From Bacillota bacterium (GTDB taxonomy: Bacteria; Bacillota; SHA-98; Ch115): 39,423 bases of DNA. The stretch is taken from assembly GCA_012842565.1 (NCBI GenBank), contig DUSO01000179.1, positions 1 to 39,423 on the forward strand, given 5' to 3'. The notes beneath the pieces were generated by a model that saw only the letters and a list, made by a program, of their open reading frames with translations, had not been told where the DNA came from and ran no database searches. The translations under genes and the position numbers were made by a program. This document shows, piece after piece, positions 22,669 through 39,407 of this stretch. Each line of letters starts with the position of its first letter. Positions within the stretch are counted from its first letter, which is position 1.

Positions 22669-22723
22669 AAATCATCCCCCACATTATGCCTCGTCATCCT
22701 GGCGGCCACTATACTGCCCTGGC

Positions 22724-24220
22724 TCATCCAGCACCTCTGACGCCGAGGGTCTCGAGCTCCCACTCTTCGAGACCAACCCCCCTGAGGTGAAGACGGTTTC
22801 CTCGAACGCTCTCAATGGCGTTTATGCCCATCCCGCCCAGCATCTCCTTGATCTCCAGGCTCCATGCCTTTACGAGGTTTACAAGACGCCGGGTCGCGAT
22901 GTCGGGGTTAAGCCTCTTTGCCAGCACAGGATCGGCCGAGGTGATGCCCCAAGCGCACTTTCCCGTGTAGCATTGCTGGCACAGGGTGCACCCCATGGCC
23001 ACAAGGGCGGCGGTGCCGATGTAAACCGCATCGGCGCCGAGAGCGATAGCCTTTATGACGTCCGCGCTGGATCGAAAGCCCCCGGCCGCAACCAGGGATA
23101 CCCGGTTTCTGATGCCCTCTCGCCTGAGCCTCCTATCGACCGCGGCAAGCGCAAGCTCAATGGGAATTCCCACATTATCGCGGATAACCTTGGGTGCGGC
23201 ACCAGTCCCTCCCCTGACACCGTCAATAGCTATGATGTCGGCACCGGCCCTGGCTATGCCTGAGGCAATCGCCGGAGCGTTGTGGACGGCGGCGATCTTC
23301 ACCGATACGGGTTTCTCGTAGTTTGTAGCCTCCTTCAAGGCATAGATCAAAGTCGAGAGGTCCTCGATGGAGTATATATCATGCTGCGGAGCCGGAGACA
23401 ACGCATCCGTGCCCACCGGGATCATCCGGGTCTCAGCCACAAGAGGGGTTACCTTTTCCCCGGGGAGGTGCCCGCCGATGCCGGGCTTTGCTCCCTGGCC
23501 AATCTTTATCTCCACGACTGCGGCCTGGTTGAGATAGTCAAAATCTACGCCAAACCTTCCGGATGCGCACTGGACAATCACGTTCTTGCCAAAGCGCCTG
23601 AAGTCCCTGGGCCATCCCCCCTCCCCTGTGTTGCAGAGGGTCCCGCATTCTTCCGCGGCCTGCATTAACGCGAGCTGCGCATTGTAGGTTATGGCCCCGT
23701 AAGACATGGCGCTGAAAAGGATGGGCATCTCGAGCCTGACCTGCGGCGCAAGCTCCGTCAGGAGCCGCCCGTCAGCAAAACGAAGCCTGTCAGGCTTCGC
23801 CCCGAGAAAGGTGCGAAGTTCCATCGGCTCGCGGAGGGGATCAATTGAGGGATTGGTCACCTGGCTCGCATTCAGGAGGAGGTGATCCCAGTAAATCCGG
23901 TAAGGCTTGTCATTTCCCATCCCGGTCAGGATCACACCCCCGGTCTCGGCCTGCCTTTTTATATCCATGAGGTGTTCAGGGCGCCAGTTGGCATTCAGGC
24001 GAAAATCCCTCTCGCTCAAACGTATAGTGATGGCCCCTGTCGGGCAGTATGTAGCACACCGCTGGCAGCCGACGCAGCGATCGTCTGCCGAGACTATGGC
24101 GTCATCTTCCTCATCGTAGGCATGCACATCAAAGCTACATTGCCGCACGCATACCTGACAGCGAATGCACTTCTCGTTGTCCCTTATGACCGTAAAATCG
24201 TTCAATACATGGCTCCTCAT
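22724..24220 (-). CDS. glutamate synthase FMN/Fe-S subunit with N-terminal ferredoxin domain
   Basis: A 498-residue protein. Residues 1-70 hold two 4Fe-4S motifs, CIRCQVCVRQC and CVGCQRCATYC. Residues about 90-480 are the FMN-binding glutamate synthase central domain: PILFSAMSYGAI, NTGEGGWPRDF, KIGQGAKPGIGGHLPGEKV, IDGVRGGTGAAPKVIRDNVGIP, VAAGGFRSSADVIKAIALGADAV, and the cluster cysteines in CTLCQQCYTGKC. It would reduce 2-iminoglutarate to glutamate with electrons through its ferredoxin part. AGGAGT 7 bases upstream sets the start at ATG 24220. This gives an 86-base overlap with the end of the amidotransferase gene, in another frame. Confidence 0.94.
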   Translation of the reverse strand: MRSHVLNDFTVIRDNEKCIRCQVCVRQCSFDVHAYDEEDDAIVSADDRCVGCQRCATYCPTGAITIRLSERDFRLNANWRPEHLMDIKRQAETGGVILTGMGNDKPYRIYWDHLLLNASQVTNPSIDPLREPMELRTFLGAKPDRLRFADGRLLTELAPQVRLEMPILFSAMSYGAITYNAQLALMQAAEECGTLCNTGEGGWPRDFRRFGKNVIVQCASGRFGVDFDYLNQAAVVEIKIGQGAKPGIGGHLPGEKVTPLVAETRMIPVGTDALSPAPQHDIYSIEDLSTLIYALKEATNYEKPVSVKIAAVHNAPAIASGIARAGADIIAIDGVRGGTGAAPKVIRDNVGIPIELALAAVDRRLRREGIRNRVSLVAAGGFRSSADVIKAIALGADAVYIGTAALVAMGCTLCQQCYTGKCAWGITSADPVLAKRLNPDIATRRLVNLVKAWSLEIKEMLGGMGINAIESVRGNRLHLRGVGLEEWELETLGVRGAG

Positions 24221-25376
24221 AGACGGCACTCCTATCTACTCCAGGCTCGACGATTCCTTCAAAAAGCCTCCCTATTACCGGCTCCCCCCCTTGTACAGCC
24301 CAGGTCCTCTCTACATCGGGACAGACGAGCCTGATCGGAGCTTCCTCCGATGCCAGGAAAAGCAGATCGCCTTTGGACCCGGCTACCAGTGGCCTCAAGT
24401 TTATCCGGTCGCGGAGTCCTATCATCTCCCCCTGGTGGGCGATTATCACCGCAAAGGGGCCGTTCATGAGAAGGCTCCCATAGACCTGCCGCAAGGCAGT
24501 GTAGGTTTCGCGGTCCGGGCTGGGCATCCGGTCTATATCCTGCCACAGCGGGGCTGCAAAGACCTTAGCCACAACAGAGATTGGGAGCCCATGTTTTCTC
24601 ACCAGGAGGTCTGTAGCATAAGCAATGACCTCGGTGTCGGTATGCATTGAACAATAGTATCCATACATCTCCAGGAATGCCCGGTTCGTTCCATAAGACG
24701 ATATCTCGCCGTTATGTACCACTGTCCAGTCCAGGATGGAGAAGGGATGAGCCCCTCCCCACCAGGCCTGGGTGTTAGTGGGGAAACGTGAGTGCCCCGT
24801 CCAGAGATAGGCCTGGTATTCGTCGAGACAGAAAAACGTCCCGATGTCCTCCGCATGGCCCACGCCCTTGAAGACCCCCATATTCTTGCCGCTAGAGAAT
24901 ACAAAAGCCCCGTCGATCGAGGTATTTATAACCATGACCCTGTCAACCACATAGTCATCCGGGGTGAGCGCAATAGCTCCGTCCGGGGTGGGCGGAATTG
25001 CTTCTTCCTGCAAAGGCTCCACGAAGTAGCGCCACAGGATCGGAGCGTTGGCAATGCCGCGTGTGTTACGCGTGGGTATAGGCTCCTGAGCCCCGATCCT
25101 GAACCACTCTTGCAGTGCGCGCTCGGTTTCCTCCCGGGCGCGCTGTGTCTCGAACATCACATGTAGCGCGTATTCTTCAGGATGCTCGGGATATATCCCG
25201 TAGGCCGCGAATCCCCCGCCGAGGCCGTTGCCCCTGTCGTGCATATTCGCCATGGCCTCGATTACGTCGCGGCCAGACATTTTCCCGCCGGCTGTATTCA
25301 TGACGCCGAATATCCCGCAATTTGCAATAACCTTGTCATCATTGAACGGATTTGTGATCCTGTCCAGGTTTCTCAC
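24135..25376 (-). CDS. glutamate synthase class II glutamine amidotransferase subunit
   Basis: A 413-residue class II (Ntn) amidotransferase, like the first domain of glutamate synthase or GlxB/MgsA. The nucleophile Cys is in IANCGIFGV; other marks are TGHSRFPTNTQAWWGGAHPF, WTVVHNGEISSYGTNR and HTDTEVIAYATD. The Cys is at residue 20, so a short propeptide would be removed to expose it. The frame is open to 25406, but GTG 25376 overlaps the stop of the FAD oxidoreductase gene (GTGA) and has GGAGG upstream. It supplies ammonia to the FMN subunit. Its 3' end overlaps that gene by 86 bases. Confidence 0.93.
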   Translation of the reverse strand: MRNLDRITNPFNDDKVIANCGIFGVMNTAGGKMSGRDVIEAMANMHDRGNGLGGGFAAYGIYPEHPEEYALHVMFETQRAREETERALQEWFRIGAQEPIPTRNTRGIANAPILWRYFVEPLQEEAIPPTPDGAIALTPDDYVVDRVMVINTSIDGAFVFSSGKNMGVFKGVGHAEDIGTFFCLDEYQAYLWTGHSRFPTNTQAWWGGAHPFSILDWTVVHNGEISSYGTNRAFLEMYGYYCSMHTDTEVIAYATDLLVRKHGLPISVVAKVFAAPLWQDIDRMPSPDRETYTALRQVYGSLLMNGPFAVIIAHQGEMIGLRDRINLRPLVAGSKGDLLFLASEEAPIRLVCPDVERTWAVQGGEPVIGRLFEGIVEPGVDRSAVYEEPCIERFYGHKGQREVHSLSGMRAAM

Positions 25377-26725
25377 ACCGCACCAGCCTCCTCGCTCCGC
25401 CACCACCCGGCTCCGACTTGGCCCAGAATCATGCCCCGGCGGATGGGGCCGGGGAATAGGCCAATCCCGGGGTCCCTCAACAAGCCAACCTTGAATGATT
25501 CGCAGTTAATCTGATTGGCCATGCACCCGACTATGACGCCCGCGCGCTCGACCCCAGCACCGATACCGATCATTCCTACCACCTTGTTGTCACGGAGCAC
25601 TAGCTTACGGTAGAACCTCATATCAGGTTTTAACTCATAGAGAATCTCCCATTTGGTGCCTGGTTCGCTCTCCTTTGGAGGGTCAAAGATCCCCGCTGAC
25701 ACCGCAGGCAAGCCGAAGAAATGAAAGGCATTCATCGCGAGCCCCCCTCGAAAGGCCGTCGGCTTGCCAGCCATGTTGAGCCCGGCGATCCGTCCTTGGA
25801 GGTAAGCGTTAGGCCATATGGGAATAGCCCTGGCCGCTCCGGTCAGGAGGTCCATTCCGATAGCGACATCCCCGGCCGCATACACGCCCGGCATTGTGGT
25901 TTCCATTCGTCCGTTCACAAAGATCCCGCGCCCTGTGGCCGGGTGGCTGCAGGAATCGCCGGCATCGGGTTTGGCCAGGTCTATCCGCGGGGAAACCCCG
26001 GTAGCAACTATTACCATATCGCAAGGTAAAGCCGTCCCGTCTTTCAGCACAACGGCTCCCGCCGATCCCGCGGGACCCGCGACAATCTCAGAAGCCGCCT
26101 TGCTGGTCAAGATATCCACCCCGTTCTGAGAGAATAGACTCGCGACGATATCTGAAGCAGCCTGGTCCAGAACCGGCGAAAGGATCCGGGGCATGAACTC
26201 CACAACGCTGACCTTGAGGTCGAGCCTCGCAAGGGCTTCCGCCGCCTGGAGGCCGATAAGGCCGCCGCCGACGATCACGACATCTCTCACCCGTGGAAGA
26301 TACTCCCTTATCTGAATCGCATCCGCCAGAGTTGTAAATGTGAATACGCCGGGCAGGTCAATCCCTGAGATAGGTGGGAGGGCCGGGCGCGCTCCGGTCG
26401 CCAGCAGAAGCTTCTTATAGTGGATCTCATCGCCGGACGCCGTCGAAACAACCCTGGCCGGGTAGTCCACTCCGGTTACTCTAACCCCTAGAATGGCGTT
26501 GACGTTCATTCGGCGATAAAAGTCGCGCGACCGGTAGAGAATCCCGTCCAGGTCCCTTTCGCCTGTGAGGTATTGAGATATCAACGGCCGGGAATAGACA
26601 GGAAAACCCTCGTCAGATATAAGGACGATTGAACCCCCGGAATCCAGCTCCCGGATTGCCTCAATTGCCCCTATGGCCGCCACTGAATTGCCAACGATCA
26701 GGTATTCTGTCGAAAGGCCCGGCAT
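25373..26725 (-). CDS. FAD-dependent NAD(P)H oxidoreductase of the glutamate synthase operon
   Basis: A 450-residue pyridine nucleotide-disulfide oxidoreductase family protein. There are two Rossmann motifs: YLIVGNSVAAIGAIEAIRE (FAD, note GNSVAA instead of GxGxxG) and VVIVGGGLIGLQAAEALARL (NAD(P)H), plus LLLATGARP, IVATGVSPR and GVYAAGDVA. The middle cysteines of a true disulfide reductase are missing. It most likely passes electrons from NAD(P)H to the ferredoxin proteins of the complex, replacing the GltD small subunit. It starts at ATG 26725, overlapping the ferredoxin stop by one base (TGATG), and is translationally coupled to the next gene. Confidence 0.88.
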   Translation of the reverse strand: MPGLSTEYLIVGNSVAAIGAIEAIRELDSGGSIVLISDEGFPVYSRPLISQYLTGERDLDGILYRSRDFYRRMNVNAILGVRVTGVDYPARVVSTASGDEIHYKKLLLATGARPALPPISGIDLPGVFTFTTLADAIQIREYLPRVRDVVIVGGGLIGLQAAEALARLDLKVSVVEFMPRILSPVLDQAASDIVASLFSQNGVDILTSKAASEIVAGPAGSAGAVVLKDGTALPCDMVIVATGVSPRIDLAKPDAGDSCSHPATGRGIFVNGRMETTMPGVYAAGDVAIGMDLLTGAARAIPIWPNAYLQGRIAGLNMAGKPTAFRGGLAMNAFHFFGLPAVSAGIFDPPKESEPGTKWEILYELKPDMRFYRKLVLRDNKVVGMIGIGAGVERAGVIVGCMANQINCESFKVGLLRDPGIGLFPGPIRRGMILGQVGAGWWRSEEAGAV

Positions 26726-27351
26726 CAGAAATCACCCCCGCCTGGCGCAGCCACAGACCCGTCCCGCGCGGTCCGAGTCTCATCCCGCCTCGCCCGAGAT
26801 TCATCCGGCCCGACACCAGGCCTGTCAAGGACGAGGGCGACCTCGGCCCCGTTTGACGCGACCTCGGCGACACCGGGGGTAGCCCCAGCCCCGGAGAACT
26901 CAGCAAACACAAGGGCTTCGTTGGGGCAATTCCTTACACATGCAGGTATCTCTTCGCCATCACACATGTCGCAACGAGCTACCAGGCCCCTCGCCTCGTC
27001 GCGTGCGATAGCCCCGTACGGGCATGCCAGCACACAGGTCAGGCAGCCGATGCACTTATTCTCATCAAAGGCCACCTTGCCATCTCCGTCAACGTAAGTA
27101 GCACCCGTAATGCAGGAATAGGCGCACAAGGGCTCTGTACAGCGCCGGCATTGAAACCCGAATGAAAGGGCCCCATAGCGTTCGACCCGGATCCTGGCAG
27201 TAGCGCGCGGCTTCTCACGGCGAAAAGCCTTTATGAGGTTTCGGGTTCTCGAGTGCTGCACGAGACAGTAGACTTCGCAAAGTCCGCATCCCATACAGAC
27301 ATCGGGATTGACATAGACCTTCTTCACACCTTCCACGCGCCTTTCTGGCAA
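26725..27351 (-). CDS. 4Fe-4S ferredoxin-type protein (HycB/DmsB-like) of the glutamate synthase operon
   Basis: A 208-residue electron carrier with four cysteine clusters: CMGCGLCEVYC, CRRCTEPLCAYSC, CIGCLTCVLAC and CDMCDGEEIPACVRNC, the layout of four-cluster ferredoxin subunits in oxidoreductase complexes. The last ~55 residues are Ala/Arg/Gly-rich low complexity outside the fold. It is the first gene of the operon. The predicted start is TTG 27351 with AGGTGGG (in the 3' arm of a leader hairpin) upstream; GTG 27336 or 27327 are alternatives with poorer spacing. It probably links the FAD oxidoreductase to the FMN subunit. Confidence 0.88.
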   Translation of the reverse strand: MPERRVEGVKKVYVNPDVCMGCGLCEVYCLVQHSRTRNLIKAFRREKPRATARIRVERYGALSFGFQCRRCTEPLCAYSCITGATYVDGDGKVAFDENKCIGCLTCVLACPYGAIARDEARGLVARCDMCDGEEIPACVRNCPNEALVFAEFSGAGATPGVAEVASNGAEVALVLDRPGVGPDESRARRDETRTARDGSVAAPGGGDF

Positions 27352-27547: not shown

Positions 27548-28624
27548 CTATGCTGCCCCGCACCTGACAAAAGTGGCGATCCCCGAGGCATCCATCCCGG
27601 CAAGCCCGAGAGACTCCGGCGTCCTGCCCGTCTTCCTGTAATCCGTCTCCCGTATGAATGACGCCGTGTCAATGAGGAAGTCTATAGTAGGCGTCGGGAC
27701 TCCAAACATCCTCCCAAAGCCTGCGATAGGCACAAGTCCCATGGGCACGTCCTCAGTTATGAACCTATCCGGAGCCTGGCTTGCTGATGCGGGGATATTC
27801 CGCGTTTGGGGCAATGGCTTGAACATGACTCCGCCGTATGCAAGCTGCTCAAACTCCTCGACTGAAAACGGCCTTAGGCCCATGGCCTGAATTACCGATA
27901 GCCTCTCCGTCTCGGCAAGGTGTTCTATCCGGTCTATCGTGGGCGACTTCCAGCTATGGAAGTCGGCTCCGATAACCTCGGGTGATTCTATGCGCCCCAA
28001 ATTGAAGATATATTTGACCACATGCAGCATTGGGTTCGGATTGTTCAGCCCTACCGTGAGGACGTCCTCCCATGCGATGACCTCCGGGAAGGCCTCATTC
28101 AGAGCATCCACGGCCTTCGGAGTATCGGTCGCGGGAAACGCGGCAACGGGCAGCGCCTTCTTACGAGCCTTTATCCCCGCATGGGCCGGCTCGATCAACC
28201 TGGTGGCATAAGGCATGCTGATGGCCTCGGCCAAAACTACCCCCCGTGTGTTTGGATAGCGATCAAGGATCTTGCGGAATACCAGGGTGCCCCCCACGTA
28301 CCCGGGGAAGAGAGTGACAACCTGTCCCGCCCTGAGATGCGGCGCAACCTGTTCCGCTACAGCTTCGTGAGCATTGGCGGGTACCGCAACCAACAATACA
28401 TCTGAAGAATCTACCACCTGCCTTACATCCGTCGTGGCACATCGGATCTCTGCAAAACCTGCCATCACAGGCCCGCTCATCTTGATCCCGCCCCGCTGCC
28501 TTATGGCCTCAATGGGGGCCGGGTTGCAATCATAAATACCGGAAAGGTTGACCCCCCTGAGAACCAGGTCACCGGCCATCGACTGTCCGCCGTTCCCTGC
28601 CCCGATAACGCCAAACCGCCTCAT
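27548..28624 (-). CDS. octopine/nopaline dehydrogenase-family NAD(P)-dependent enzyme
   Basis: A 358-residue protein with an N-terminal Rossmann fold (FGVIGAGNGGQSMAGDL) and a C-terminal opine dehydrogenase domain. NNPNPMLHV carries the conserved His of this family. FHSWKSPTIDRIEHL and YRKTGRTPESLGLAGM are near the end. Family members couple an amino acid and a 2-oxo acid by reductive amination, or run in reverse to break opines down. The start is ATG 28624 with GGAGGA 7 bases upstream. It is the last gene of the lyase-TRAP operon, 75 bases after the permease, which favours a catabolic role (inference). Other members of this fold act on other 2-hydroxy or 2-amino acids. Confidence 0.85.
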   Translation of the reverse strand: MRRFGVIGAGNGGQSMAGDLVLRGVNLSGIYDCNPAPIEAIRQRGGIKMSGPVMAGFAEIRCATTDVRQVVDSSDVLLVAVPANAHEAVAEQVAPHLRAGQVVTLFPGYVGGTLVFRKILDRYPNTRGVVLAEAISMPYATRLIEPAHAGIKARKKALPVAAFPATDTPKAVDALNEAFPEVIAWEDVLTVGLNNPNPMLHVVKYIFNLGRIESPEVIGADFHSWKSPTIDRIEHLAETERLSVIQAMGLRPFSVEEFEQLAYGGVMFKPLPQTRNIPASASQAPDRFITEDVPMGLVPIAGFGRMFGVPTPTIDFLIDTASFIRETDYRKTGRTPESLGLAGMDASGIATFVRCGAA

Positions 28625-28698
28625 TTCAAGTCCTCCTTTTATCTGCACTTCTTAAGACCCCATTAGATTGCGCATCGTACAACAGGTCTTGCACAGGA

Positions 28699-30606
28699 TC
28701 ATTCGGACGGGGGAATGTTAACCAGCGTCTGGCGTCGCCGCCGAAGTGCCCCTGAGACCCGGCTTACGACCAGGATAATTGCAAAGAGTCCCAAACCGAT
28801 GATATCCGTCGCAAGCCCCGGTTTGATGAGCGTTAGTGCCGCTACAATCAGTAGCGCCCTCGCTATGCTTCCAATAGCTCTATCTCCCATCCAGCCCTCA
28901 ATACCCATGGCGAGGGCCCAGACCCCAATGATCGCCGTTACCGCGGCCCACATGATGTTGCCTAAGCCCCCCTGTGCCAACAGCGGAGGACCATAGACGA
29001 ACATGAACGGCACTATGTATGCAACGAGGCCCAGCCTTACCGCCGTAACCCCCACCCTCATGGGATTAGCCTTGGCAAGCCCGGCACCGGCATAAGCCGC
29101 GAGGGCGACGGGTGGCGTGATCGCCGAGATACAGGCATAATAGAAGATAAACATATGAGCGGCCAGTGGAGAAACCCCGAGTTCTATAAGAGCCGGTGCG
29201 GCGACAGCGGCACATATCAGATAAGAGGCCGTCGTAGGTAATCCCATGCCGAGCACCAGGCTTGCGACGGCAGATAAGACCAGGGCCGGGAGCAGATTCC
29301 CATGGGATAGGGCAAGGACCACCTGAGCAAACTTAAGGCCCGCCCCCGTTAAGGAGAGTACACCGATGACTATCCCGGCACACGCACATGAGCTTATGAT
29401 CCCTACGGAACCTTTTGCCCCGTCATAGAGCGCAGATATTATCCTCGCAAGCCCCATTCGAGTCTCGCGCTTAAAGGCAGTCACAACTATAACCGAAGCT
29501 ATCGCCCAGAGAGCAGCCCGGATCACGCTGGCTCTGAGCACCACCAGGACGAAGATGAGGACCAGCACTGGCGTTACAAGGTACCCCTGGGTCCTCAACA
29601 CATGCCTGACGGACGGGAGTTCATCCTTGGGGACACCTTTGAGGCCGTATTTGCCAGCCTCAAGGTCCACCATGAAAATTACGGATAGGAAATAGAGCAC
29701 TGCCGGGATCAGCGCAGAAGTTGCTATCTTAAGGTAGCTCACCCCTATGAGTTGCGCCATGATGAAGGCTGCGGAGCCCATGATGGGGGGCATGATCTGA
29801 CCGCCGGTGGATGCCACAGCCTCTACCGCCCCTGCAAAGGCCGGTTTGTAGCCGATTCTCTTCATCATCGGGATCGTAAAGACGCCGGTTGAAACGACAT
29901 TGGCAACAGAATTGCCCGAGATGGTTCCAAAGAGCGCGCTTGCCAGGACCGCGATCTTCGCCGGGCCGCCGCGTTTGTCACCCGCAACTCCCGTGGCGAA
30001 ATCTATAAAGAATTTACCTGCCCCTGTCGCATGAAGAAATGCACTGAACAGGAGCAGAAGGAAGACAAATTGAGCGGAGGCACCTAAAGATACGCTGAAA
30101 ATCGCGTCAAGACCCGTGACATAGCTTACAATCCTTGACCAATCGTACCCCCGGTGGCCCAAGATCCCCGGCAGACACCCCCCATACCTGGCGTATAGAA
30201 GGAATAGCGCAGCAAAGGTGGGAAGGATAGGCCCAGATGTGCGCCGTGTAATCTCCAGGACCATGATGACAAGCGCCGCGCTGAAAAAGAGATCCCAGGC
30301 CGTTGGAGCCACTCCTATACGGTAGATCAATTCCTCCATTTCCACGCTGAAGTAAACCGCAGCCGCCACTGCAAGAAGCGCCATGGCGATATCAAGCACT
30401 GAAGGTCTTCCCATGGGCGACCGCTTGGTTGCGGGATAGAGGAGGAAGACCAGCACGATTCCAAACGCCAGGTGGATATTGTACAGGATCCATGGTGTAA
30501 TGGGATTGAATCCCAAGAGGTAGATATGTACGAGGGACATTGCGACGCCTATAGCGACTACCAACTTGCCGAAAATCCCCTCATTCTCGCGGTCCAACTT
30601 TCTCAC
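28699..30606 (-). CDS. TRAP transporter fused permease (4TM/12TM, TAXI type)
   Basis: A 635-residue membrane protein joining the small (DctQ-like, first ~4 helices) and large (DctM-like) permease parts, the form used by TAXI-type TRAP systems. The large-part motif is clear: LASALFGTISGNSVANVVSTGVFTIPMM, AVASTGGQIMPPIMGSAAFIMA, LVLGMGLPTTASYLI and ITPPVALAAYAGAGLA. It drives uptake of an organic acid or amino acid with Na+ or H+. The start is GTG 30606 or, with better ribosome spacing, TTG 30597. Its binding protein is upstream; the 137-base gap between them holds tandem repeats. Confidence 0.94.
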   Translation of the reverse strand: MRKLDRENEGIFGKLVVAIGVAMSLVHIYLLGFNPITPWILYNIHLAFGIVLVFLLYPATKRSPMGRPSVLDIAMALLAVAAAVYFSVEMEELIYRIGVAPTAWDLFFSAALVIMVLEITRRTSGPILPTFAALFLLYARYGGCLPGILGHRGYDWSRIVSYVTGLDAIFSVSLGASAQFVFLLLLFSAFLHATGAGKFFIDFATGVAGDKRGGPAKIAVLASALFGTISGNSVANVVSTGVFTIPMMKRIGYKPAFAGAVEAVASTGGQIMPPIMGSAAFIMAQLIGVSYLKIATSALIPAVLYFLSVIFMVDLEAGKYGLKGVPKDELPSVRHVLRTQGYLVTPVLVLIFVLVVLRASVIRAALWAIASVIVVTAFKRETRMGLARIISALYDGAKGSVGIISSCACAGIVIGVLSLTGAGLKFAQVVLALSHGNLLPALVLSAVASLVLGMGLPTTASYLICAAVAAPALIELGVSPLAAHMFIFYYACISAITPPVALAAYAGAGLAKANPMRVGVTAVRLGLVAYIVPFMFVYGPPLLAQGGLGNIMWAAVTAIIGVWALAMGIEGWMGDRAIGSIARALLIVAALTLIKPGLATDIIGLGLFAIILVVSRVSGALRRRRQTLVNIPPSE

Positions 30607-30668
30607 CTCACCAAGAAGGCATTCTCCGGGCTTCCTCGCGTTTATAGCTCTAAGTGGTCACCTGTGAC

Positions 30669-30742
30669 AGCTGTCCGGCCACGCAATTCGTCTGGCGACT
30701 ACAATAGCTGTCCGGCTGCGCCAATTTGTCCGGCAGTGCAAT
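30669..30742 (-). repeat. two tandem 37-bp repeats between TRAP genes
   Basis: Units 30669-30705 and 30706-30742 both begin AGCTGTCCGGC and end CAAT. Within them TGTCCGGC (or CGTCTGGC) recurs four times at 30672, 30689, 30709 and 30727, every 17-20 bases. The block starts one base past the binding-protein stop codon. Confidence 0.7.
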
Positions 30743-31741
30743 CTACTGCGGAGGCAGGAGCCTCTCAGGTATCTTGATGCCCTTCTCGCGATAGTACCTC
30801 AAGGCTCCGGGGTGCAAGGGTACCGTGCTGTATTTGATGCCCTCGGCGAACATTTGCGCGGCATTGGGATCCACCTTCGTCAGCGCTTCCTTGTTTTCAA
30901 AGGTTGCCTTTACCAGGTTGTACACCAGGTCATCAGGGAGATCCTTATCGGCTATCGCTACGTTCCAGAATGTGACGGTGGGCACGTCGCCCTCCTGGTA
31001 CTTATAGGTACCCTTGGGGATTACGCCTGCCGAATAGTAAGGGAATGCCTCGGTTATCTTGTCCAGGTCCTCTTTCGACAGCCCTATATGCCGCACCTTA
31101 TGGGTCGTCTCGAGGTCCAGCATAAATGGCCCGGGAAGCCCGGTAACCGCAAACCCTGCATCGGCGGTGCCGTCCCTCAGCGCATCAACTGCCGTGTTGG
31201 TGGGCAGGCTGCTGATCTTCTTGGGCGTGATTCCCAAGAGCTTTAGGACATCCCTACCGGCTACATCACTGGTGCTGCCAGGCGCTCCAGTCGTGATGCG
31301 TTTTCCCTCGAAGTCATAAATGGTCTTGATGGGACTACTCTCAAGGGTATAGATGTGCAGCACGCTGGCATACATTGGAAATATAGCCCTTATCCTATCA
31401 TGCTTCTTGCCCTTGGCCCAATCTAAACCATTCCACCCCTGATATGCCATGCTCACAGTTGTAAATCCTAAATCCATCTTTCTCTGCTGGATCAGCTGGA
31501 TGTTCGTTGCAGGCCCTCCGGTAACCTCGACCGAAATGTCTACTCCTTTCACATGTTCACCCATGATCTTGGCCCATCCGCCACCCCAGACGAAATATGT
31601 TCCCCCCACGCTGGAAGTACCCAATGTCAGCCTGGTCAGGGGGCTTGCGGAGACGGGGCCGAACACGAGGCCGATGAGCCCTATCATCAATAGCAAGCTC
31701 GCCATCAAGTGTCCTGAACGTACAGGGGACTGTCTAGTCAC
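30743..31741 (-). CDS. TAXI-family TRAP transporter substrate-binding protein
   Basis: A 332-residue periplasmic-type (here surface-held) binding protein. The signal peptide covers about residues 1-33 (LMASLLLMIGLIGLVFGPVSA-S). The TAXI signature follows: LTLGTSSVGGTYFVWGGGWAKIM, VTGGPATNIQLIQQRKMDLGF, RITTGAPGSTSDVAGRDVLKLLG and DALRDGTADAGFAVTGLP. There is no lipobox Cys at the cleavage point. TAXI proteins are known to bind glutamate, 2-oxoglutarate and similar acids. The start is GTG 31741 with GAGGAGGG. It lies 119 bases after the GntR gene. Confidence 0.94.
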   Translation of the reverse strand: MTRQSPVRSGHLMASLLLMIGLIGLVFGPVSASPLTRLTLGTSSVGGTYFVWGGGWAKIMGEHVKGVDISVEVTGGPATNIQLIQQRKMDLGFTTVSMAYQGWNGLDWAKGKKHDRIRAIFPMYASVLHIYTLESSPIKTIYDFEGKRITTGAPGSTSDVAGRDVLKLLGITPKKISSLPTNTAVDALRDGTADAGFAVTGLPGPFMLDLETTHKVRHIGLSKEDLDKITEAFPYYSAGVIPKGTYKYQEGDVPTVTFWNVAIADKDLPDDLVYNLVKATFENKEALTKVDPNAAQMFAEGIKYSTVPLHPGALRYYREKGIKIPERLLPPQ

Positions 31742-31860
31742 TTCTATCCCTCCTCGTATCGTTTTCGGTCAGGGAGATAAAACGCCGCCTTTTCATGTCC
31801 TGAGGAACTTGAGGAACGCCCGGAGAACCCAAGGATTTATCCTGTCGCCCGGTTCAACAA

Positions 31861-32568
31861 TTAGGTGCTCGTATGCACCATCAACTTACAACGATCCCCC
31901 CTTACTACCGACTTGGTCAGAACCACTGGCTTGCCATCTTTCTGGAAGTTTATCCTCGTAAGAAGCAAAGCAGGCATCCCCCGCCTTACCCCGAGGAGTT
32001 CAGCCTCAAATGAATCAAGCACCACCGGCTCGACATATGTCTCAGCCTCGTCCAGGGAGATCCCGTATCCCTGTTTGAGCAAATCGTAAAGTTTGCCCGG
32101 GAAGTCCCGCGCAACCAGGTCCGGACAAATCGATAAAGGAATGTAAGATTTTTCAATGACAACCGGTTCGCCATTTGCGAGTCGCACCCTTACGAGTTCA
32201 GTAACCTGATCTTGTGGAGAAAGCCCTAGAGGCTCTGCAACGCTGGGAGGGGGGGAAATTATCTTACGATCTACGGTCCTGTGTTCCTCGCCGACTTCCG
32301 CTGGCAGGAAGAAATGGACCACATCGCCGCGTATCTTGGGCTCGGCCACAAACGTGCCCTTGCCTTGCTTTCTATAAAAGAGGCCCTGTTGAACCAGGTC
32401 AAGTATGGCGCGGCGCACCGTCGACCTGCTGAGCCCCCATTCCCGGGCTATCTCCACCTCATTCGGCAGCTTATCACCAGGCTTGAGTTCCCCTGAGTCA
32501 ACCTTTGCCTTGAGGAGTTCTTTGAGCTGGTAATACAGGGGAATACCGCTGTTTTCATCCAGTCTCAA
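31861..32568 (-). CDS. GntR-family regulator with UTRA domain (HutC-like)
   Basis: A 235-residue repressor with an N-terminal winged helix (residues 8-75: IPLYYQLKELLKAKVDSGEL, KLPNEVEIAREWGLSRSTVRRAI, GLFYRKQGKGTFVAEP) and a UTRA ligand domain (about 90-230). It starts at TTG 32568 after AGGGAGGG, 36 bases after the lyase gene. As the only regulator inside the lyase-TRAP operon it probably senses the imported substrate or a product and controls the operon. The palindrome at 34173-34188 before the lyase gene is a candidate site. Confidence 0.93.
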   Translation of the reverse strand: MRLDENSGIPLYYQLKELLKAKVDSGELKPGDKLPNEVEIAREWGLSRSTVRRAILDLVQQGLFYRKQGKGTFVAEPKIRGDVVHFFLPAEVGEEHRTVDRKIISPPPSVAEPLGLSPQDQVTELVRVRLANGEPVVIEKSYIPLSICPDLVARDFPGKLYDLLKQGYGISLDEAETYVEPVVLDSFEAELLGVRRGMPALLLTRINFQKDGKPVVLTKSVVRGDRCKLMVHTST

Positions 32569-32603
32569 CTTAGGCCCTCCCTGTAAAACTCACCGGCGGC
32601 TTC

Positions 32604-34109
32604 CTATAAAGCGCCGGTAATCTGCCGCACACGTTCTGATAGCCGGGCCCTGGCTTGATCAAGACGATCTCGCCTCGCCTGCGCCCGGTCTCGGCACTCC
32701 TTCAACCTCTCCTCGGCATTGGACACCATCCGCCTCACCTCAGCCGTGGCGGGGCCCCCTAATGAGTCTCGTACCTCGACATTGCGCTCGGGTGCAAGGA
32801 CGGACTTAAGGGTGGATGGATTGATATTCAGTGCCCGGCCGGCAATATCCCTGGACACCTCATCGAGCATCTCGGCGGTAATATCGCTTGCCACAAGCCC
32901 GGCAGATACGGCCCTGCTTACGAGGCTGGCCACTATCATGTGCGCTACACGGAAGGGGAGGTCGCACTCTCTTACCAGGGTGTCTGCAAGCTCCGTTGCC
33001 GTGCTGAAGTTCCTCGCGGCCCTTTCTGCCATGATGTCGCTGCGGACCCTTAGGGACGAAAGCGTCGCGGACATCAACCTCAGGGTAATACTGGATTCGT
33101 CCAGGCCATTCCACAAGGAGGCTACACACTCCCCCGCCACGTCACGTGAATGGCCGAAGGGCACATTCTTAAGGCAGGCAAGAGAGGAGATGAGCGCGCC
33201 GTAAACGTGAGCAGCCTTAGACTTACAGTGCTCCAGGGTTATCGGGTTTTTCTTCTGGGGCATTATACTGCTCACCGCCGCGACGCTGCCGTCCAGGTCG
33301 ATATATGAGAATTCGTCAGTATACCACAGGTAGAGGTCCATGGACAGCCTGCTTATGTCGGTCATCATTATAGAAAGGGCCGCGAGGAGCTCCGGCACCC
33401 AGTCGCGCGATGCTACCGCGTCGAGGGAATTCTCGAGAATTCCGTCAAAGCCCAGGAGGTCCGCCGTAATCTCCCGGTCTATTGGGAACCCGGTCCCTGC
33501 GAGCGCTCCTGCGCCAAGGGGGCACTGGTTTATGGTCTCATAAGCGGCCTCCAGGCGCTTTGTGTCCCTCTCGAGAGCAGAAGCCAGGGCGCACATATAG
33601 TGGCCAAACGTAATCGGCTGAGCCGGCTGCAGGTGCGTATACCCGGTCATAACCGTGGTGAGGTCGCGAGAGGCTAGCGTCAGCAATTGCCCTCTAAGCT
33701 GGATTACAAGGTCCAGGAGATCGTTGAGTTTGTCTCTGGCAATCATGCGATCGAGAGTCGCATGTAGGTCATTTCTACTTCGCCCGGTATGCATCCGGCC
33801 GCCGACCTCCGGTCCGGTCCTTTCGATCAGCAATCGTTCAATGTTGAAGTGAAGGTCTTCCACAGAAGGATCCAGGTCGGCCTCACTCAGCCCCTCCGCC
33901 TCCAACGATTCGAGAACAATGAGTATTCTAGCCGCCACATCCTTCGGTATAATGCCGGTGTCCGCCAGCATAACCACATGGGCCTTGTTGATCTGCATCA
34001 TGTGACCAAAACCAAGACGAAAATCCCTCTCGATTGCAGGCCTGAATAACAACTCCGCTACTTCTTTCAATGGTTGCGAGTTGAGCCTTTCCCTCATGTC
34101 TATGTCCAT
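32604..34109 (-). CDS. argininosuccinate-lyase-like C-N lyase (fumarase/aspartase superfamily)
   Basis: A 501-residue protein of the superfamily that removes fumarate from N-succinyl compounds. Conserved regions: SVEDLHFNIE (82-91), GGRMHTGRSRNDLHATLD (103-120), GYTHLQPAQP (156-165, His159) and SSIMPQKKNP (280-289, catalytic Ser loop). It differs from true ArgH: there is no WGGRF start, and the stretch after the signature reads LKNVPFGHSRDVAG in place of LKGLPLAYNKDMQED. No other arginine genes are nearby, while a GntR regulator and TRAP transporter follow. A catabolic lyase acting on an N-succinyl-type amino acid is likelier than arginine synthesis. It starts at ATG 34109 with GGAGG 11 bases upstream. 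Confidence 0.85.
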   Translation of the reverse strand: MDIDMRERLNSQPLKEVAELLFRPAIERDFRLGFGHMMQINKAHVVMLADTGIIPKDVAARILIVLESLEAEGLSEADLDPSVEDLHFNIERLLIERTGPEVGGRMHTGRSRNDLHATLDRMIARDKLNDLLDLVIQLRGQLLTLASRDLTTVMTGYTHLQPAQPITFGHYMCALASALERDTKRLEAAYETINQCPLGAGALAGTGFPIDREITADLLGFDGILENSLDAVASRDWVPELLAALSIMMTDISRLSMDLYLWYTDEFSYIDLDGSVAAVSSIMPQKKNPITLEHCKSKAAHVYGALISSLACLKNVPFGHSRDVAGECVASLWNGLDESSITLRLMSATLSSLRVRSDIMAERAARNFSTATELADTLVRECDLPFRVAHMIVASLVSRAVSAGLVASDITAEMLDEVSRDIAGRALNINPSTLKSVLAPERNVEVRDSLGGPATAEVRRMVSNAEERLKECRDRAQARRDRLDQARARLSERVRQITGAL

Positions 34110-34172: not shown

Positions 34173-34188
34173 ATATGTACGTACATAT
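34173..34188. promoter_or_regulatory. 16-bp perfect palindrome in the divergent promoter region
   Basis: ATATGTACGTACATAT is fully symmetric and lies 64 bases before the lyase start and 182 before the ATPase start. Its GT-N-AC core resembles sites of HutC-type GntR regulators. A GntR/UTRA gene is the second gene of the lyase operon. The match to that regulator is inferred. Confidence 0.55.
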
Positions 34189-34235: not shown

Positions 34236-34241
34236 TATAAT
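34236..34241 (+). promoter_or_regulatory. -10 box TATAAT before the ATPase gene
   Basis: A perfect TATAAT in an AT-rich stretch, with no matching -35 at 16-18 bases. The start would be near 34248, giving a leader of about 120 bases before ATG 34370. Confidence 0.4.
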
Positions 34242-34369
34242 TGCAGAAATGTGATCCAGTGGGAAGCCGCCAAGCATTTTCCTATCCCGCCCAGTGTGGT
34301 ATGATTTGTCTTGGGCGAAAGCCGATAGCCGCTGAGGTTTCAGACGGAGGCGAGGAGGTTCGCAGGGCC

Positions 34370-36151
34370 ATGGTTGAGCCGCGGGTGTTGCCAGTCGAAG
34401 AGATGGTCTCGGAGGAGGAGTTTACCGACCGGGTGGAGATATTGAGGGAGCTCGAGGACTGGTACCGCAACATAAAGCGCAGGATCTCCAGCAGCTTGGC
34501 GCTCATCTCCCCTCGCAGGATGGGCAAGACCGCCCTTCTCGACAGACTGGTCAATACAGTCTTCTTCAAGGACTATGACGTCGCCCCCTTCTATTTCAAG
34601 ATGAAACGTGAGGAAACCACGCTCCGGAAGTTCCTCCTGGAATACTACACCACGTTTTTCAGGCAATACATCGCATACATACTAAAAGACCCAGCGCTCT
34701 ATGGGGACCGGGGGATGAAGCTCAGGGACCTGTTGAAGCTGAAGACAAACAACGAAAAGGTCCAGTATGTTCAGAGAGAACACCTGGCCAGATTCATTGA
34801 AAGGTATGAAGGGTATGACTGGCAGGATGCCCGTAACCACTGGGAGGACATGATCGCTACCCCTGAGTTTCTCGGGGCAATGCTAGGAGTCCACGTGGCC
34901 GTTATCATTGACGAATTCCAGGACATGAAGTTCTACATCTACGATGCTGAGGATGAGAAGGAAGTCGATCCAGAGATCCACCGGCCCACGGACCTCACCG
35001 CCACATACGACCGCAAGTCCCAGAGCAGGCGTGCGCCGATGCTTGTCTCAGGCTCTGCTGTGACCATGATATTCCGCACTGTCATGGGAGGACCCCTCGG
35101 AGGACGCTTTGGTTTTAAGTACCTCAAGCCCATGGCAATCGAGGACGGCGCTACCCTGATAAAGAAGCTCCTCAGGATGCGAGGCTCCGACATCACTGAT
35201 GAGCTGGCCATATACCTGAGCTCCCAGGTGAACGGTCACCCATACTATGTCTATTGCTGCGCTGAATCCGATTGTCCGGATAAGGACTTTACCACAAAGG
35301 AAGGCATCGACAGGGTCGTCGAATATGAGGTTACAAGGGGCAAGATCTTCGGCTTCTGGGAGACCCACTTTCAAGAGAACCGAAAATACATAAACCAGGA
35401 CAATGACATAGAGCTCGGGAAGAAGATCATCTACTACTTCACCAAGTATAACAATGCCCCTGTAGACATAGAGGAGATTGCGGGTAAGCTCAAGGTGAGC
35501 AAGTATGCGGTGGAGGAGAAGATAGAGAAGCTCTACCAGGCAGACCTGGTATACAGGAGTGACTTCAAGTATTACACCTTCAACGACATCATGCTCATGC
35601 GGTATATCCAGCACCGGTATGAGAATGAGTTAAAGGATGTCGAGAAGGTGGACTTAGGGCAGCAGGGGCTATTCAACTATGTCAAGGGCAAGTTCCTGGA
35701 GATGGTGGTCCAGAACATAATGTCCAAGTTCAATAACGAGGATCTGGACGGGAGACTTTTCGGCCATCCGGGAGAGGTGATCAAAGCTCCTCTCTTCAGG
35801 GCACGTGGGGACATGGTTGTGAAGCTTCCTTCTTCCGCGGAGCACCAGGTTGACGCATATGGAGATTATGAGAAAGACGGGGTAAAGCACATATGGGTAG
35901 CAGAGTGCAAGTATCGTAAGGATGAGCCCATGACGAGCAAGGAGGTAGAGAAGGCCATTGAGGCTGCGGGTGTGGTGAAGGTGATTCGCAATGCCCGGGA
36001 TATGAAGGTGTGGCTTGTATCTACAGGCGGGTTCACCAAGGATGCGCTCGAGCTGATGAGGGAGAATGGGTGTCTTTTCTCAGGGCAGGATGAGATAAAC
36101 GAGATAGCGAGGCTATATGGCATAGGGGTAAAGATTGTAGAATTCCAGTGA
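34370..36151 (+). CDS. AAA-type ATPase with C-terminal PD-(D/E)XK-like nuclease domain
   Basis: A 593-residue STAND/AAA ATPase of the archaeal-ATPase (ATPase_2) kind. Walker A is SPRRMGKTALL (47-57, Lys53), Walker B VAVIIDEFQDM (Asp181, Glu182), with a sensor-like MLVSGSAVTM. A winged helix follows at about 360-405 (PVDIEEIAGKLKVSKYAVEEKIEKLY). The C-terminal part (about 435-560) has VDAYG (Asp495) and WVAECKYRK (Glu512, Lys514), the D...ExK pattern of restriction-like nucleases. GAGGAGG upstream supports ATG 34370; the frame is open to 34241. It is single, with a -10 box before it. Related ATPase-nucleases are often mobile or linked to defence; the function here is unknown. Confidence 0.87.
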   Translation: MVEPRVLPVEEMVSEEEFTDRVEILRELEDWYRNIKRRISSSLALISPRRMGKTALLDRLVNTVFFKDYDVAPFYFKMKREETTLRKFLLEYYTTFFRQYIAYILKDPALYGDRGMKLRDLLKLKTNNEKVQYVQREHLARFIERYEGYDWQDARNHWEDMIATPEFLGAMLGVHVAVIIDEFQDMKFYIYDAEDEKEVDPEIHRPTDLTATYDRKSQSRRAPMLVSGSAVTMIFRTVMGGPLGGRFGFKYLKPMAIEDGATLIKKLLRMRGSDITDELAIYLSSQVNGHPYYVYCCAESDCPDKDFTTKEGIDRVVEYEVTRGKIFGFWETHFQENRKYINQDNDIELGKKIIYYFTKYNNAPVDIEEIAGKLKVSKYAVEEKIEKLYQADLVYRSDFKYYTFNDIMLMRYIQHRYENELKDVEKVDLGQQGLFNYVKGKFLEMVVQNIMSKFNNEDLDGRLFGHPGEVIKAPLFRARGDMVVKLPSSAEHQVDAYGDYEKDGVKHIWVAECKYRKDEPMTSKEVEKAIEAAGVVKVIRNARDMKVWLVSTGGFTKDALELMRENGCLFSGQDEINEIARLYGIGVKIVEFQ

Positions 36152-36485: not shown

Positions 36486-37826
36486 CTATACCCCGGCCGG
36501 CGGCTGCGGGATCACTCCCTCCCTCATCAAAAGCTGGGTCATCCCCCTCGACCTCTTTATTATCCCGCTCGCCTTCTCATACAGCTCGTCCTTGCTCAGC
36601 TTTACCCTCGCCACTCCCTGCTCTATCGCCTTCAACCCTACCGCTACCGCCTCCCTCGGGTATACCTCCCACTCATCCATCGTAGGAAGCAAATACTCCT
36701 CATGTATGCCCTTGTCCTCTGCGCACTTCGCAAGCTCCATCGCCGCCGCTATGCACATCTCATCCGTTATCGTCTTCGCCCTCACATCAAGCGCTCCCCT
36801 GAATATCCCCGGAAACCCAAGAGAATTGTTCACCTGGTTCGGAAAATCTGACCTCCCCGTCGCCACTACCCTCGCCCCGGCCTCCTTTGCCTCCCACGGC
36901 CATATCTCAGGAATGGGATTGGCACACACAAACACTATCGCATCCTTTGCCATGCCACTTATCCATTCCTTCTTCAAAGTATCAGGCCCTGACTTGGATA
37001 GCGCTATCACCACGTCCGCCCCTTCCATCGCCTCCGGTATCCCGCCTTCTATACCATCCGCATTCGTCTTAACGCACATCTCCCACTTCTCCTTGTGGGT
37101 GTCCTTTAGCTCTGTCCTGCCACGGTGAAGCGTTCCCTTGCTATCGCACATGATGATATTCCCCGGTGTCGCACCTGCAGCAATTATCATCCGCGCCGTG
37201 CAGATGTTAGCAGCCCCAGCACCTATAAGCGCTATCCTTACATCCTCTAGCCCCTTCCCCACTACCTTCAGCGCATTTATCAATCCCGCAAGGGTCACCG
37301 CAGCTGTCCCCTGCTGGTCATCATGCCACACAGGTATCTCCATCTCTTCCCTCAGCCTCTCAAGCAAATAAAAACACTTGGGCTGCTCTATGTCCTCTAG
37401 GTTTATCCCCCCAAAGGACGGCTCAAGCCACTTGACTGCCTTGATTATCTCCTCCGGGTCCTTTGTGTCAAGGCATATGGGAAATGCATCTACTCCCCCG
37501 AGATACTTGAACAGCATGGACTTGCCTTCCATGACAGGCATCCCGGCCTCAGGCCCTATGTCCCCAAGCCCAAGCACCCTCGTCCCGTCTGTCACAACAG
37601 CTACCGTGTTCCACTTGTTCGTATACTCATACACAAGCTCCTTGTTGGCCTTTATTGCCTTGCATGGCTCTGCAACCCCCGGGGTATACCATATCGCAAA
37701 GTCCTGAAAATCCCTGATGATCCCCTTGGGGCTCACCTCGATCTTGCCCCTGTAAAACGGGTGCATCTTCATGGCATCCTCTGCAGGCTTCTTTGCCTTG
37801 GCCAATAGCTCCTCCTTGGTAATCAC
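36486..37826 (-). CDS. NAD(P)-dependent malic enzyme
   Basis: A 446-residue decarboxylating malate dehydrogenase (malate to pyruvate + CO2). Marks: FAIWYTPGVAEPCKAI (Tyr of the catalytic pair), VTDGTRVLGLGDIGPEAGMPVMEGKS, PVWHDDQQGTAAVTLAGLINAL (metal Asp residues), the Rossmann motif IALIGAGAANICTARM and FVCANPIPEI. It is the short bacterial type without a phosphotransacetylase tail. It starts at ATG 37826, 43 bases after the fumarase beta stop, as the last gene of a fumarate-to-pyruvate operon. Cofactor choice (NAD or NADP) cannot be read with confidence. Confidence 0.96.
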   Translation of the reverse strand: MITKEELLAKAKKPAEDAMKMHPFYRGKIEVSPKGIIRDFQDFAIWYTPGVAEPCKAIKANKELVYEYTNKWNTVAVVTDGTRVLGLGDIGPEAGMPVMEGKSMLFKYLGGVDAFPICLDTKDPEEIIKAVKWLEPSFGGINLEDIEQPKCFYLLERLREEMEIPVWHDDQQGTAAVTLAGLINALKVVGKGLEDVRIALIGAGAANICTARMIIAAGATPGNIIMCDSKGTLHRGRTELKDTHKEKWEMCVKTNADGIEGGIPEAMEGADVVIALSKSGPDTLKKEWISGMAKDAIVFVCANPIPEIWPWEAKEAGARVVATGRSDFPNQVNNSLGFPGIFRGALDVRAKTITDEMCIAAAMELAKCAEDKGIHEEYLLPTMDEWEVYPREAVAVGLKAIEQGVARVKLSKDELYEKASGIIKRSRGMTQLLMREGVIPQPPAGV

Positions 37827-37869
37827 CCAAAACCCTCCCAGAATCTAATTTCAGGCCCACAGGCCCCAT

Positions 37870-38421
37870 TCAGCCTATCCGGTACTTCCTCACGCCTTCC
37901 TCGTAGAGGTCGTTGCCGTATATGTCGTTCACCACAACACAGGGAAAATCCTCTACCGTAAGCTTCATGATCGCTTCCGGGCCCAGGTCCTCATACGCCA
38001 CAAGCTCTGAGGCTTTGACCGACTTTGCCAAGAGTGCCCCGGCCCCTCCTATGGCTGCAAAGTATACGGCCTTGTACTTGACCATGGCGTCTTTCACAAC
38101 CCTGGACCTCATGCCCTTGCCAATCATCCCTTTTAACCCATGCTCCATAAGCAGGGGCGCATATGAATCCATCCTGTAGCTCGTGGTCGGACCCGCTGAA
38201 CCAATGGCCTTCCCTGGCTTTGCCGGAGTGGGACCAACATAGTATATGACCTGGCCCCTTATGTCCAGCGGAAGCTCCTCCCCCTCCTTGATGAGGTTAA
38301 CAAGCCTCTTGTGGGCCGCATCCCTCGCCGTGTATATCACCCCTGATATCCTCACGTCATCCCCGGCCTTAAGCTGCGCTACTGTCTCATCTGTAAGCGG
38401 AGTTACGATCTTGACCGCCAC
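37870..38421 (-). CDS. class I fumarate hydratase, beta (C-terminal) subunit
   Basis: A 183-residue swivelling C-terminal domain of two-subunit class I (4Fe-4S) fumarase, also seen in L-tartrate dehydratase TtdB. Family marks: LKAGDDVRISGVIYTARDAAHKRL, YYVGPTPAKPG, GSAGPTTSYRMDSY, MIGKGMRS and YFAAIGGAGALLA. It works with the alpha subunit encoded just upstream. Fumarase is preferred over tartrate dehydratase because malic enzyme follows in the same operon. Confidence 0.92.
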   Translation of the reverse strand: MAVKIVTPLTDETVAQLKAGDDVRISGVIYTARDAAHKRLVNLIKEGEELPLDIRGQVIYYVGPTPAKPGKAIGSAGPTTSYRMDSYAPLLMEHGLKGMIGKGMRSRVVKDAMVKYKAVYFAAIGGAGALLAKSVKASELVAYEDLGPEAIMKLTVEDFPCVVVNDIYGNDLYEEGVRKYRIG

Positions 38422-38481
38422 CCGTCAACCACTCCCTCCATCTCCATACCTCACACAAAACCTGCCGCCCACTTAGAATAC

Positions 38482-38541
38482 ATCACGGCCCGGCCTCACA
38501 ATCCCTTGCCAGCCAGGGATGTATCACCGCCCGGCCTCACA
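38482..38541 (-). repeat. 19-bp direct repeat between fumarase genes
   Basis: ATCACGGCCCGGCCTCACA (38482-38500) and ATCACCGCCCGGCCTCACA (38523-38541), + strand, 18 of 19 bases the same, 41-bp period, just after the alpha-subunit stop. A small stem CCCTTGCC / AGCCAGGG lies between them. Confidence 0.6.
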
Positions 38542-38546
38542 GCCCC

Positions 38547-39407
38547 CTAGATTACCGCGCTCTCATGCGGGCCAACATGACAGTTCAAGTTGACAGCCAC
38601 CGGCATGCTTGCAATGTGACAGGGCGAATACTCGATGTTGACCGCAAGCGCCGTGATCCTCCCACCAAACCCCTGAGGCCCTATCCCAAGCTTGTTTATC
38701 TCCACAAGCAGCTCCCTCTCAAGCTCCGCATACATGGGGTCCGGGTTGTGCGAGCCCACAGGCCTTAAAAGTGCTCTCTTGGCAAGAAGGGCTACCCTAT
38801 CAAAGGTCCCCCCTATCCCAACCCCAACCACCACAGGAGGACATGCATTGGACCCCGCCTTCTCTACCCTCTCCACAACAAACTGCTTTACACCCTCCAC
38901 CCCGGCAGCAGGAGCAAGCATGGCAATTCCACTCATGTTCTCCGCTCCCCCGCCCTTGGGAGCTACCGTTATCTTCAGATTCGTGCCGGGAACTATGTCC
39001 ACGTAGATCATCGCAGGCGTGTTGTCCCCGGTGTTTATCCTCCTAAAGAGGGGGTCGTTGACCATGGACTTCCTCAGATACCCCTCTTTATATCCCTGCC
39101 TTACCCCCTCGTTGATCGCCTCATACAGGTCTCCTCCCACAAGGTGAACATCCTGCCCGAGCTCGACAAAGACCATGGCCACACCTGTGTCCTGGCATGC
39201 AGGCACTCCTTCTTCCCTCGCGATCCTGTGGTTTTCGAGGATCTGCTTCAGAACCTCCCTGCCTACCGGGGATTCCTCAATTTCTAGAGCCCTCTCGAGC
39301 GCAGCGATGGTCTCGCGGGGGACATTGGAGTTTGCGCTTATACACAGCCTCTTTACCGTAGATGTCACCTCTGCCACGGAAATCTCCCGTAAGCCGCAAA
39401 AACCCAC
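38547..39407 (-). CDS. class I fumarate hydratase, alpha (N-terminal) subunit
   Basis: A 286-residue 4Fe-4S subunit of the oxygen-sensitive fumarase, converting fumarate to malate. Cluster cysteines are likely Cys71 (VPACQDTGVA), Cys189 (GSNACPPVVVGVGIGGT) and Cys276 (NLNCHVG). Other marks are RRINTGDNTPAMIY, PKGGGAENMSG and ALAVNIEYSPCHIASMPVAVN. The start is GTG 39407 with GGAGG 7 bases upstream, right at the window end, so the operon promoter or a further gene lies outside. The gap to the beta gene is 125 bases. Confidence 0.93.
   Translation of the reverse strand: MGFCGLREISVAEVTSTVKRLCISANSNVPRETIAALERALEIEESPVGREVLKQILENHRIAREEGVPACQDTGVAMVFVELGQDVHLVGGDLYEAINEGVRQGYKEGYLRKSMVNDPLFRRINTGDNTPAMIYVDIVPGTNLKITVAPKGGGAENMSGIAMLAPAAGVEGVKQFVVERVEKAGSNACPPVVVGVGIGGTFDRVALLAKRALLRPVGSHNPDPMYAELERELLVEINKLGIGPQGFGGRITALAVNIEYSPCHIASMPVAVNLNCHVGPHESAVI

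Follow-up and report, generated by a model that had tools for sequence, protein, structure and literature searches.

The closest described systems concern opines and aminopolycarboxylates. The succinamopine region of Agrobacterium includes an asparaginase (PMC6733357), and the iminodisuccinate pathway of A. tumefaciens BY6, going by a title cited in PMC7347537, requires an epimerase and a C-N lyase. The aspergillomarasmine precursor toxin A is a product of EDDS lyase (PMC10792612), an enzyme whose residues D290 and Y320 are among those lying 4 to 6 Å from the substrate (PMC12363623). In metagenomic opine dehydrogenases (ODHs), positions 111 and 198 govern amino-acid preference, with Ala/Asn favoring apolar amino acids and Arg/Gly favoring Asp and Glu, and Arg35 is a sign of NADPH preference (PMC10787698). 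In the TAXI protein VcGluP, Tyr45 and Gln93 are the two critical residues, loss of Gln93 causing a 990-fold drop in affinity (PMC11574862).

The window, by which we mean the entire analyzed stretch of 39,423 nucleotides, contains a five-gene set on the minus strand at positions 27548 to 34109. Its positions, strand and gene families, as given in a preliminary description, were all borne out by Pfam and NCBIfam models, from which the families of the five genes were assigned. The set consists of an ArgH-superfamily C-N lyase of 501 amino acids (32604 to 34109; Lyase_1 8.5e-53, ASL_C2 7.7e-18), a GntR/UTRA (HutC-type) transcriptional regulator (31861 to 32568; UTRA 2.4e-37), a TAXI-family TRAP solute-binding protein with a signal peptide (30743 to 31741; TRAP_TAXI 9.1e-75), a fused (QM) TRAP permease (28699 to 30606; TRAP_fused 2.1e-205, TIGR02123 684 bits), and an NAD-type ODH of 366 amino acids (27548 to 28648; Octopine_DH 7.2e-24), for which Met9 is an alternative start. 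Successive genes in this order are separated by 35, 119, 136 and 50 bases, and the TAXI protein and adjoining permease exceed the cut-offs of TIGR02122 and TIGR02123, respectively. On the plus strand, a divergent gene at 34241 to 36151 encodes an archaeal-type ATPase whose C terminus weakly matches an Mrr-like nuclease.

From the gene set and its conservation, the placement of the lyase apart from ArgH, its residue changes, and a shared upstream motif, all of them read from sequence, we infer a substrate class, a direction of reaction, a mode of induction, and a division of labor between lyase and ODH. The operon probably serves the GntR-controlled import and cleavage of an N-substituted aspartate, likeliest an N-(1,2-dicarboxyethyl) amino acid or a similar opine. 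We assign this a probability of about 0.55, which refers to the substrate class; for any particular compound it would be clearly lower.

Conservation of the gene set was assessed by scanning 84,980 species genomes with the ODH as query, which yielded 80 loci. The lyase, TAXI protein, TRAP permease and ODH occur together in 12 of these loci, always with the GntR regulator, such that the five-gene set is present in 13 genomes when the window is counted. The carriers are scattered soil and sediment bacteria of the Clostridia (Petroclostridium and two Clostridia metagenome-assembled genomes) and Bacilli (Lysinibacillus, Neobacillus, Metabacillus, two Bacillus, Ammoniphilus, Alteribacillus, Halalkalibacter and Oceanobacillus). 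The genes take three orders (lyase-GntR-TAXI-TRAP-ODH, GntR-lyase-TAXI-TRAP-ODH, and ODH-lyase-GntR-TAXI-TRAP), and the TRAP permease always adjoins the TAXI gene. Because the set recurs in 13 genomes, its clustering is not due to chance, and the expected co-occurrence of lyase, TAXI-TRAP pair and ODH is supported across Clostridia and Bacilli. The expectation that the genes would stay together in relatives fared less evenly: distant Clostridia and Bacilli that have this ODH subfamily usually have the genes together, but a lyase of the window type was found neither in the three other genomes of the window's order nor among 299 genomes sampled from the Neobacillus order. The operon is rare. When 399 genomes of the phylum were sampled starting from the lyase, four had a close lyase (E ≤ 1e-105), and ODH, TAXI and TRAP genes lay beside two of these four, namely, in the window itself and in genome G369. 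The scan favors ODH-bearing cases, since the ODH was its query.

All 13 ODHs linked to a lyase, TAXI and TRAP fall within two groups (A, 9 rows; B, 10 rows) of an 83-row tree of 82 ODHs plus the Arthrobacter enzyme 1bg6, and none of the remaining 63 ODHs is so linked. Constraining groups A and B to one clade was not rejected (p-AU 0.60), and independent recruitment of two ODH subfamilies is thus not supported. The exceptions within group A are two rumen copies accompanied by TAXI and TRAP genes and no lyase (L062 and L066), a Hungatella ODH whose neighbors read as a mandelate-racemase-type enzyme and a GltS-type permease, and an alphaproteobacterial ODH with neither lyase nor TAXI-TRAP. Conversely, five loci have a relative of the lyase without an ODH (L019, L020, L052, L053 and L170). 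The occurrence of such lyases without an ODH, and of the rumen ODHs without a lyase, indicates that lyase and ODH do not necessarily share a substrate. On plasmids L191 and L192, neither a lyase nor an ODH adjoins the TAXI relatives.

The lyase scores 437 bits against the ArgH model, whose cut-off is 279.5. A canonical ArgH, 35% identical to the window lyase, is encoded elsewhere in the genome (contig C189) downstream of argF and argG. In a maximum likelihood tree of 49 lyases, the 15 argG-linked ArgHs form a single clade (100/100), and the window lyase, the other operon lyases, their plasmid relatives and EDDS lyase lie on the opposite side. This split was reproduced after dropping the long L168 and L169 rows and adding plasmid rows; the branch of EDDS lyase is long, and the non-ArgH side is not resolved at its deeper nodes.

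The active site of these lyases is assembled from several subunits. Like a C-N lyase of the fumarase/aspartase superfamily, the window lyase has the Ser281 loop SSIMPQKKN, Thr158 and His159, and in the alignment the catalytic and fumarate-site residues Arg112, Asn113, Thr158, His159, Ser281, Lys286 and Asn288 are kept in 14 of 14 operon lyases. The pocket for the amine half differs. Seven residues invariant in the 15 argG-linked rows (Q113, D290, Y320, N321, K322, Q325 and K328, numbered as in the T. thermophilus enzyme) are replaced in the window lyase, five of them aligning with L115, I290, H320, A325 and V329. Position 290 is I, L or V and position 320 is His in all 14 operon lyases, in place of the Asp and Tyr found in all 15 argG-linked enzymes, where we take these residues to hold the arginine half of the substrate. 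The positions near the substrate of EDDS lyase (Gln159, Asp290 and Tyr320) correspond to His159, Ile290 and His320. Since argH stands beside argG elsewhere in the genome, the tree separates the two groups at 100/100, and the amine pocket is altered, the lyase, judged by its sequence, is not ArgH, in keeping with what had been proposed. Its residue changes predict that it would not complement an argH mutant, and its predicted reaction is the cleavage of an N-substituted aspartate to fumarate and an amine.

The best solved match of the ODH is Arthrobacter 1C opine dehydrogenase (1bg6; E = 6.1e-55), which it matches over its full length, comprising a Rossmann domain and an Octopine_DH helical domain. 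Residues His202, Arg292, Glu296 and Asp297 of 1bg6 are all kept, as His209, Arg295, Glu299 and Asp300. The specificity pair (positions 111 and 198) is Tyr117/Asn205 in the window and likewise Tyr/Asn in the Clostridia relatives; the Bacilli ODHs keep Asn198 and have a Tyr after the same Pro-Gly, where their alignment is one residue shorter. The NADPH-type Arg35 is absent from all 13 operon-linked ODHs. These features predict NAD-linked enzymes with a distinct amino-acid preference, a prediction in line with catabolism by oxidation.

Nearly all of the mODH-type ODHs (Arg111/Gly198) lie directly beside a gene for a protein with an N-terminal B12-binding domain (L012:49-3915 [contig C141 of the window's genome], L072, L076, L079, L086, L103 and L120, among others). 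This partner has about 550 to 570 amino acids in L086 and L012, and that of L086 weakly resembles glutamate mutase subunits; such loci often also encode an ATP-grasp ligase of the D-Ala-D-Ala type. Among the scanned loci, it lies beside no TAXI-TRAP-linked ODH. A B12-dependent opine pathway is possible for this pairing.

The TAXI protein still has the Tyr that corresponds to VcGluP Tyr45. At the position of Gln93 all operon copies have Thr, and the operon set also has other residues in place of Ser75, Glu125, Tyr200 and Met201. With its glutamate-site residues replaced, the protein is unlikely to have plain glutamate as its ligand.

The neighbors of other lyase relatives bear on the substrate class. 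An asparaginase gene adjoins such relatives in Cupriavidus (L053), Cereibacter (L055), Agrobacterium (L194), Petroclostridium (L170) and Ammoniphilus (L090), and in L194 the lyase is directly preceded by the gene for an MmgE/PrpD protein, for which iminodisuccinate (IDS) epimerase is the best solved match (E = 1e-59). Further neighbors include kinases, SIS or NagB-like proteins, an isochorismatase-like amidase, and a mandelate-racemase-type enzyme. The asparaginase and IDS-epimerase-like neighbors point to N-substituted aspartates as the substrate class. Judged by this gene context, the shared reaction of the family would be removal of fumarate from an N-substituted aspartate, or from an asparagine form prepared by the asparaginase, and the amine released would differ between operons.

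The cluster on a plasmid of Agrobacterium sp. 33MFTa1.1 (L194:77-11393) contains a sugar-phosphate-type epimerase, asparaginase, GntR regulator, amino acid ABC importer, IDS-epimerase-like protein, ArgH-like lyase, SIS protein and PfkB kinase, a mixture of fructose-asparagine-like and iminodisuccinate-like genes. A single run in Ammoniphilus (L090:563-11059) encodes an asparaginase, a lyase, a TIM-barrel epimerase, a second lyase, GntR, TAXI, TRAP and ODH, uniting the Agrobacterium-type and window-type gene sets. In Petroclostridium (L176:7569-10684), two different ArgH-like lyases, one very divergent, stand in tandem before a branched-chain-type ABC importer.

A candidate operator for the GntR regulator is the perfect 16-bp palindrome ATATGTACGTACATAT (34173 to 34188), located upstream of the lyase. 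The palindrome, TATGTACGTACATA, is unique in this genome, its core having no second site in the 2.5-Mb assembly when up to one mismatch is allowed. An identical copy of the 14-mer lies upstream of the Oceanobacillus lyase, the second Ammoniphilus lyase (L090) has three copies of TTGTACGTACATACGTACAA ahead of it, and the motif occurs at up to two mismatches upstream of the operons of L112, L090 and seven other Bacilli. A site within two mismatches thus lies upstream of ten of the 13 operons and is missing at that threshold from the three of Clostridia; in each of the ten, about 1 to 4% of random stretches from the same locus, including stretches overlapping the site, match as well. The GntR/UTRA regulator is predicted to bind the palindrome and is presumed to respond to the imported compound.

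Two adjacent units could use the products of this system and in our view lie outside it. The preliminary description proposed an opine or N-succinyl amino acid catabolic operon whose nitrogen could be handled by the next operon. The importer, the regulator, the two secondary-amine enzymes, their conserved co-occurrence, and the distinction from ArgH sustain the first part, but the link to glutamate synthase did not hold up: the split glutamate synthase genes, with Fe-S and FAD partners, are real (21892 to 27351), but they have their own promoter-like site (27484 to 27456, 11 of 12 matches) and in the nearest relative (G001) are located apart, without the operon. A malic enzyme and two-subunit fumarase (36486 to 39422), upstream of the lyase across one gene, would be a chemically fitting fumarate sink but are a pair that G001 likewise keeps in the operon's absence. 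The genes that immediately follow those for glutamate synthase (19980 to 21789) encode a SIS-domain protein and an RpiR-type regulator, for which no link to the operon was seen. A malic-enzyme-like gene also occurs near the lyase-asparaginase operon of Petroclostridium (L170:14582-15754).

In the pathway that we propose, the TAXI-TRAP transporter would import an N-substituted aspartate, and the imported ligand would free GntR from its TGTACGTACA operator. The lyase, with Ser281 on a mobile loop and with Thr158/His159, would remove fumarate from the aspartyl half by beta-elimination and free the amine. The ODH would use NAD to oxidize a secondary amine to an imine, hydrolysis of which would give a 2-oxo acid and an amino acid; its substrate might be the opposite stereoisomer, the second half of the compound, or a related opine. 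The Tyr/Asn pair of the ODH, differing from the Arg/Gly pair that favors Asp and Glu, counts against this scheme, as does the lack of the palindrome before the three Clostridia operons.

A different view is that one importer serves two substrates, the lyase acting on N-substituted aspartates and the ODH on a separate opine, as part of broad-specificity scavenging. Each enzyme also being found without the other, and the presence of two lyases in Ammoniphilus, would suit such an arrangement, but we regard it as unlikely because in 13 genomes lyase and ODH remain together with one and the same regulator and TAXI-TRAP pair. We give appreciably less credence to an Amadori-type conjugate of a sugar with aspartate or asparagine, from which the lyase would produce an amino sugar and fumarate. 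The window operon encodes no kinase, asparaginase or SIS protein, and Amadori products would not be expected substrates for an opine dehydrogenase, even though the L194 plasmid unites an asparaginase, SIS protein, PfkB kinase, GntR regulator, importer and lyase, the L090 TAXI-TRAP-ODH operon includes an asparaginase, an L194-related epimerase and a fragment matching the L194 SIS protein, and kinases and NagB-like proteins lie beside other lyase relatives.

Slightly less probable again is that the operon degrades a chelator of the aminopolycarboxylate type, such as EDDS or aspergillomarasmine, with the lyase removing fumarate and the ODH splitting the remaining secondary amine. EDDS lyase does group with the window lyase and produces toxin A on the way to aspergillomarasmine (PMC10792612), but its branch is long and its substrate-near Asp290 is I, V or L in the operon lyases. 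Least probable is that the lyase is a second argininosuccinate lyase in an operon serving arginine or argininosuccinate metabolism, since against its above-cut-off ArgH score stand the full argF-argG-argH cluster at another place in the genome, the separate clade of all argG-linked ArgHs, and the replacement of seven residues invariant among them.

Import and cleavage of an N-substituted aspartate, the reading we prefer, might extend to an opine economy in the Firmicutes, in which an NAD-linked ODH and a fumarate-releasing lyase degrade a natural N-(1,2-dicarboxyethyl) amino acid supplied by TAXI-TRAP under a TGTACGTACA regulon, independently of the flavin enzymes of Agrobacterium; we advance this only tentatively. 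The operon may also bring to light a natural opine or chelator that is used outside crown galls, and it is a source of candidate enzymes for the synthesis of N-substituted amino acids. The ligands of TAXI proteins are known for few transporters, and lyases of the window group carry argininosuccinate lyase annotations on public plasmids; the conserved lyase, ODH and candidate operator open both problems to direct assay.

The literature searched contained no combination of opine dehydrogenase and TRAP transporter genes, and for argininosuccinate lyase, TRAP transporter and opine together it contained unrelated work only. On that basis the five-gene combination appears to be new; opine and aminopolycarboxylate catabolism are themselves already known. 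The catabolism of nopaline and succinamopine in Agrobacterium likewise places an importer and an opine-cleaving enzyme in one region, but employs flavin-type dehydrogenases and an ABC importer, with no lyase mentioned (PMC6733357). The iminodisuccinate pathway of BY6 has a parallel in the IDS-epimerase-like protein directly beside a relative of the window lyase in L194, whereas the window operon has an opine dehydrogenase in place of the epimerase.

At the level of single proteins, EDDS lyase (Chelativorans sp. BNC1; 6G3D) shares with the window lyase the ArgH superfamily, the catalytic loop and fumarate-site residues, the side of the tree relative to argG-linked ArgH and, if the predicted activity is correct, the removal of fumarate from N-substituted aspartates. 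It differs in its long branch and in Asp290/Tyr320 and Gln159, which are Ile/His and His in the window, and we know of no ODH or TAXI partner for it. The ODH resembles 1bg6 and the metagenomic mODHs in full-length homology and catalytic residues, and 1bg6 also in the NAD-type end of strand 2, but its Tyr/Asn pair is neither the Ala/Asn of 1bg6 (apolar amino acids) nor the Arg/Gly of mODH (Asp/Glu). The TAXI protein belongs to the same fold family as the glutamate-binding VcGluP and TtGluBP and keeps the Tyr45 equivalent, and it departs from VcGluP in having Thr for Gln93 and in the four further replaced positions.
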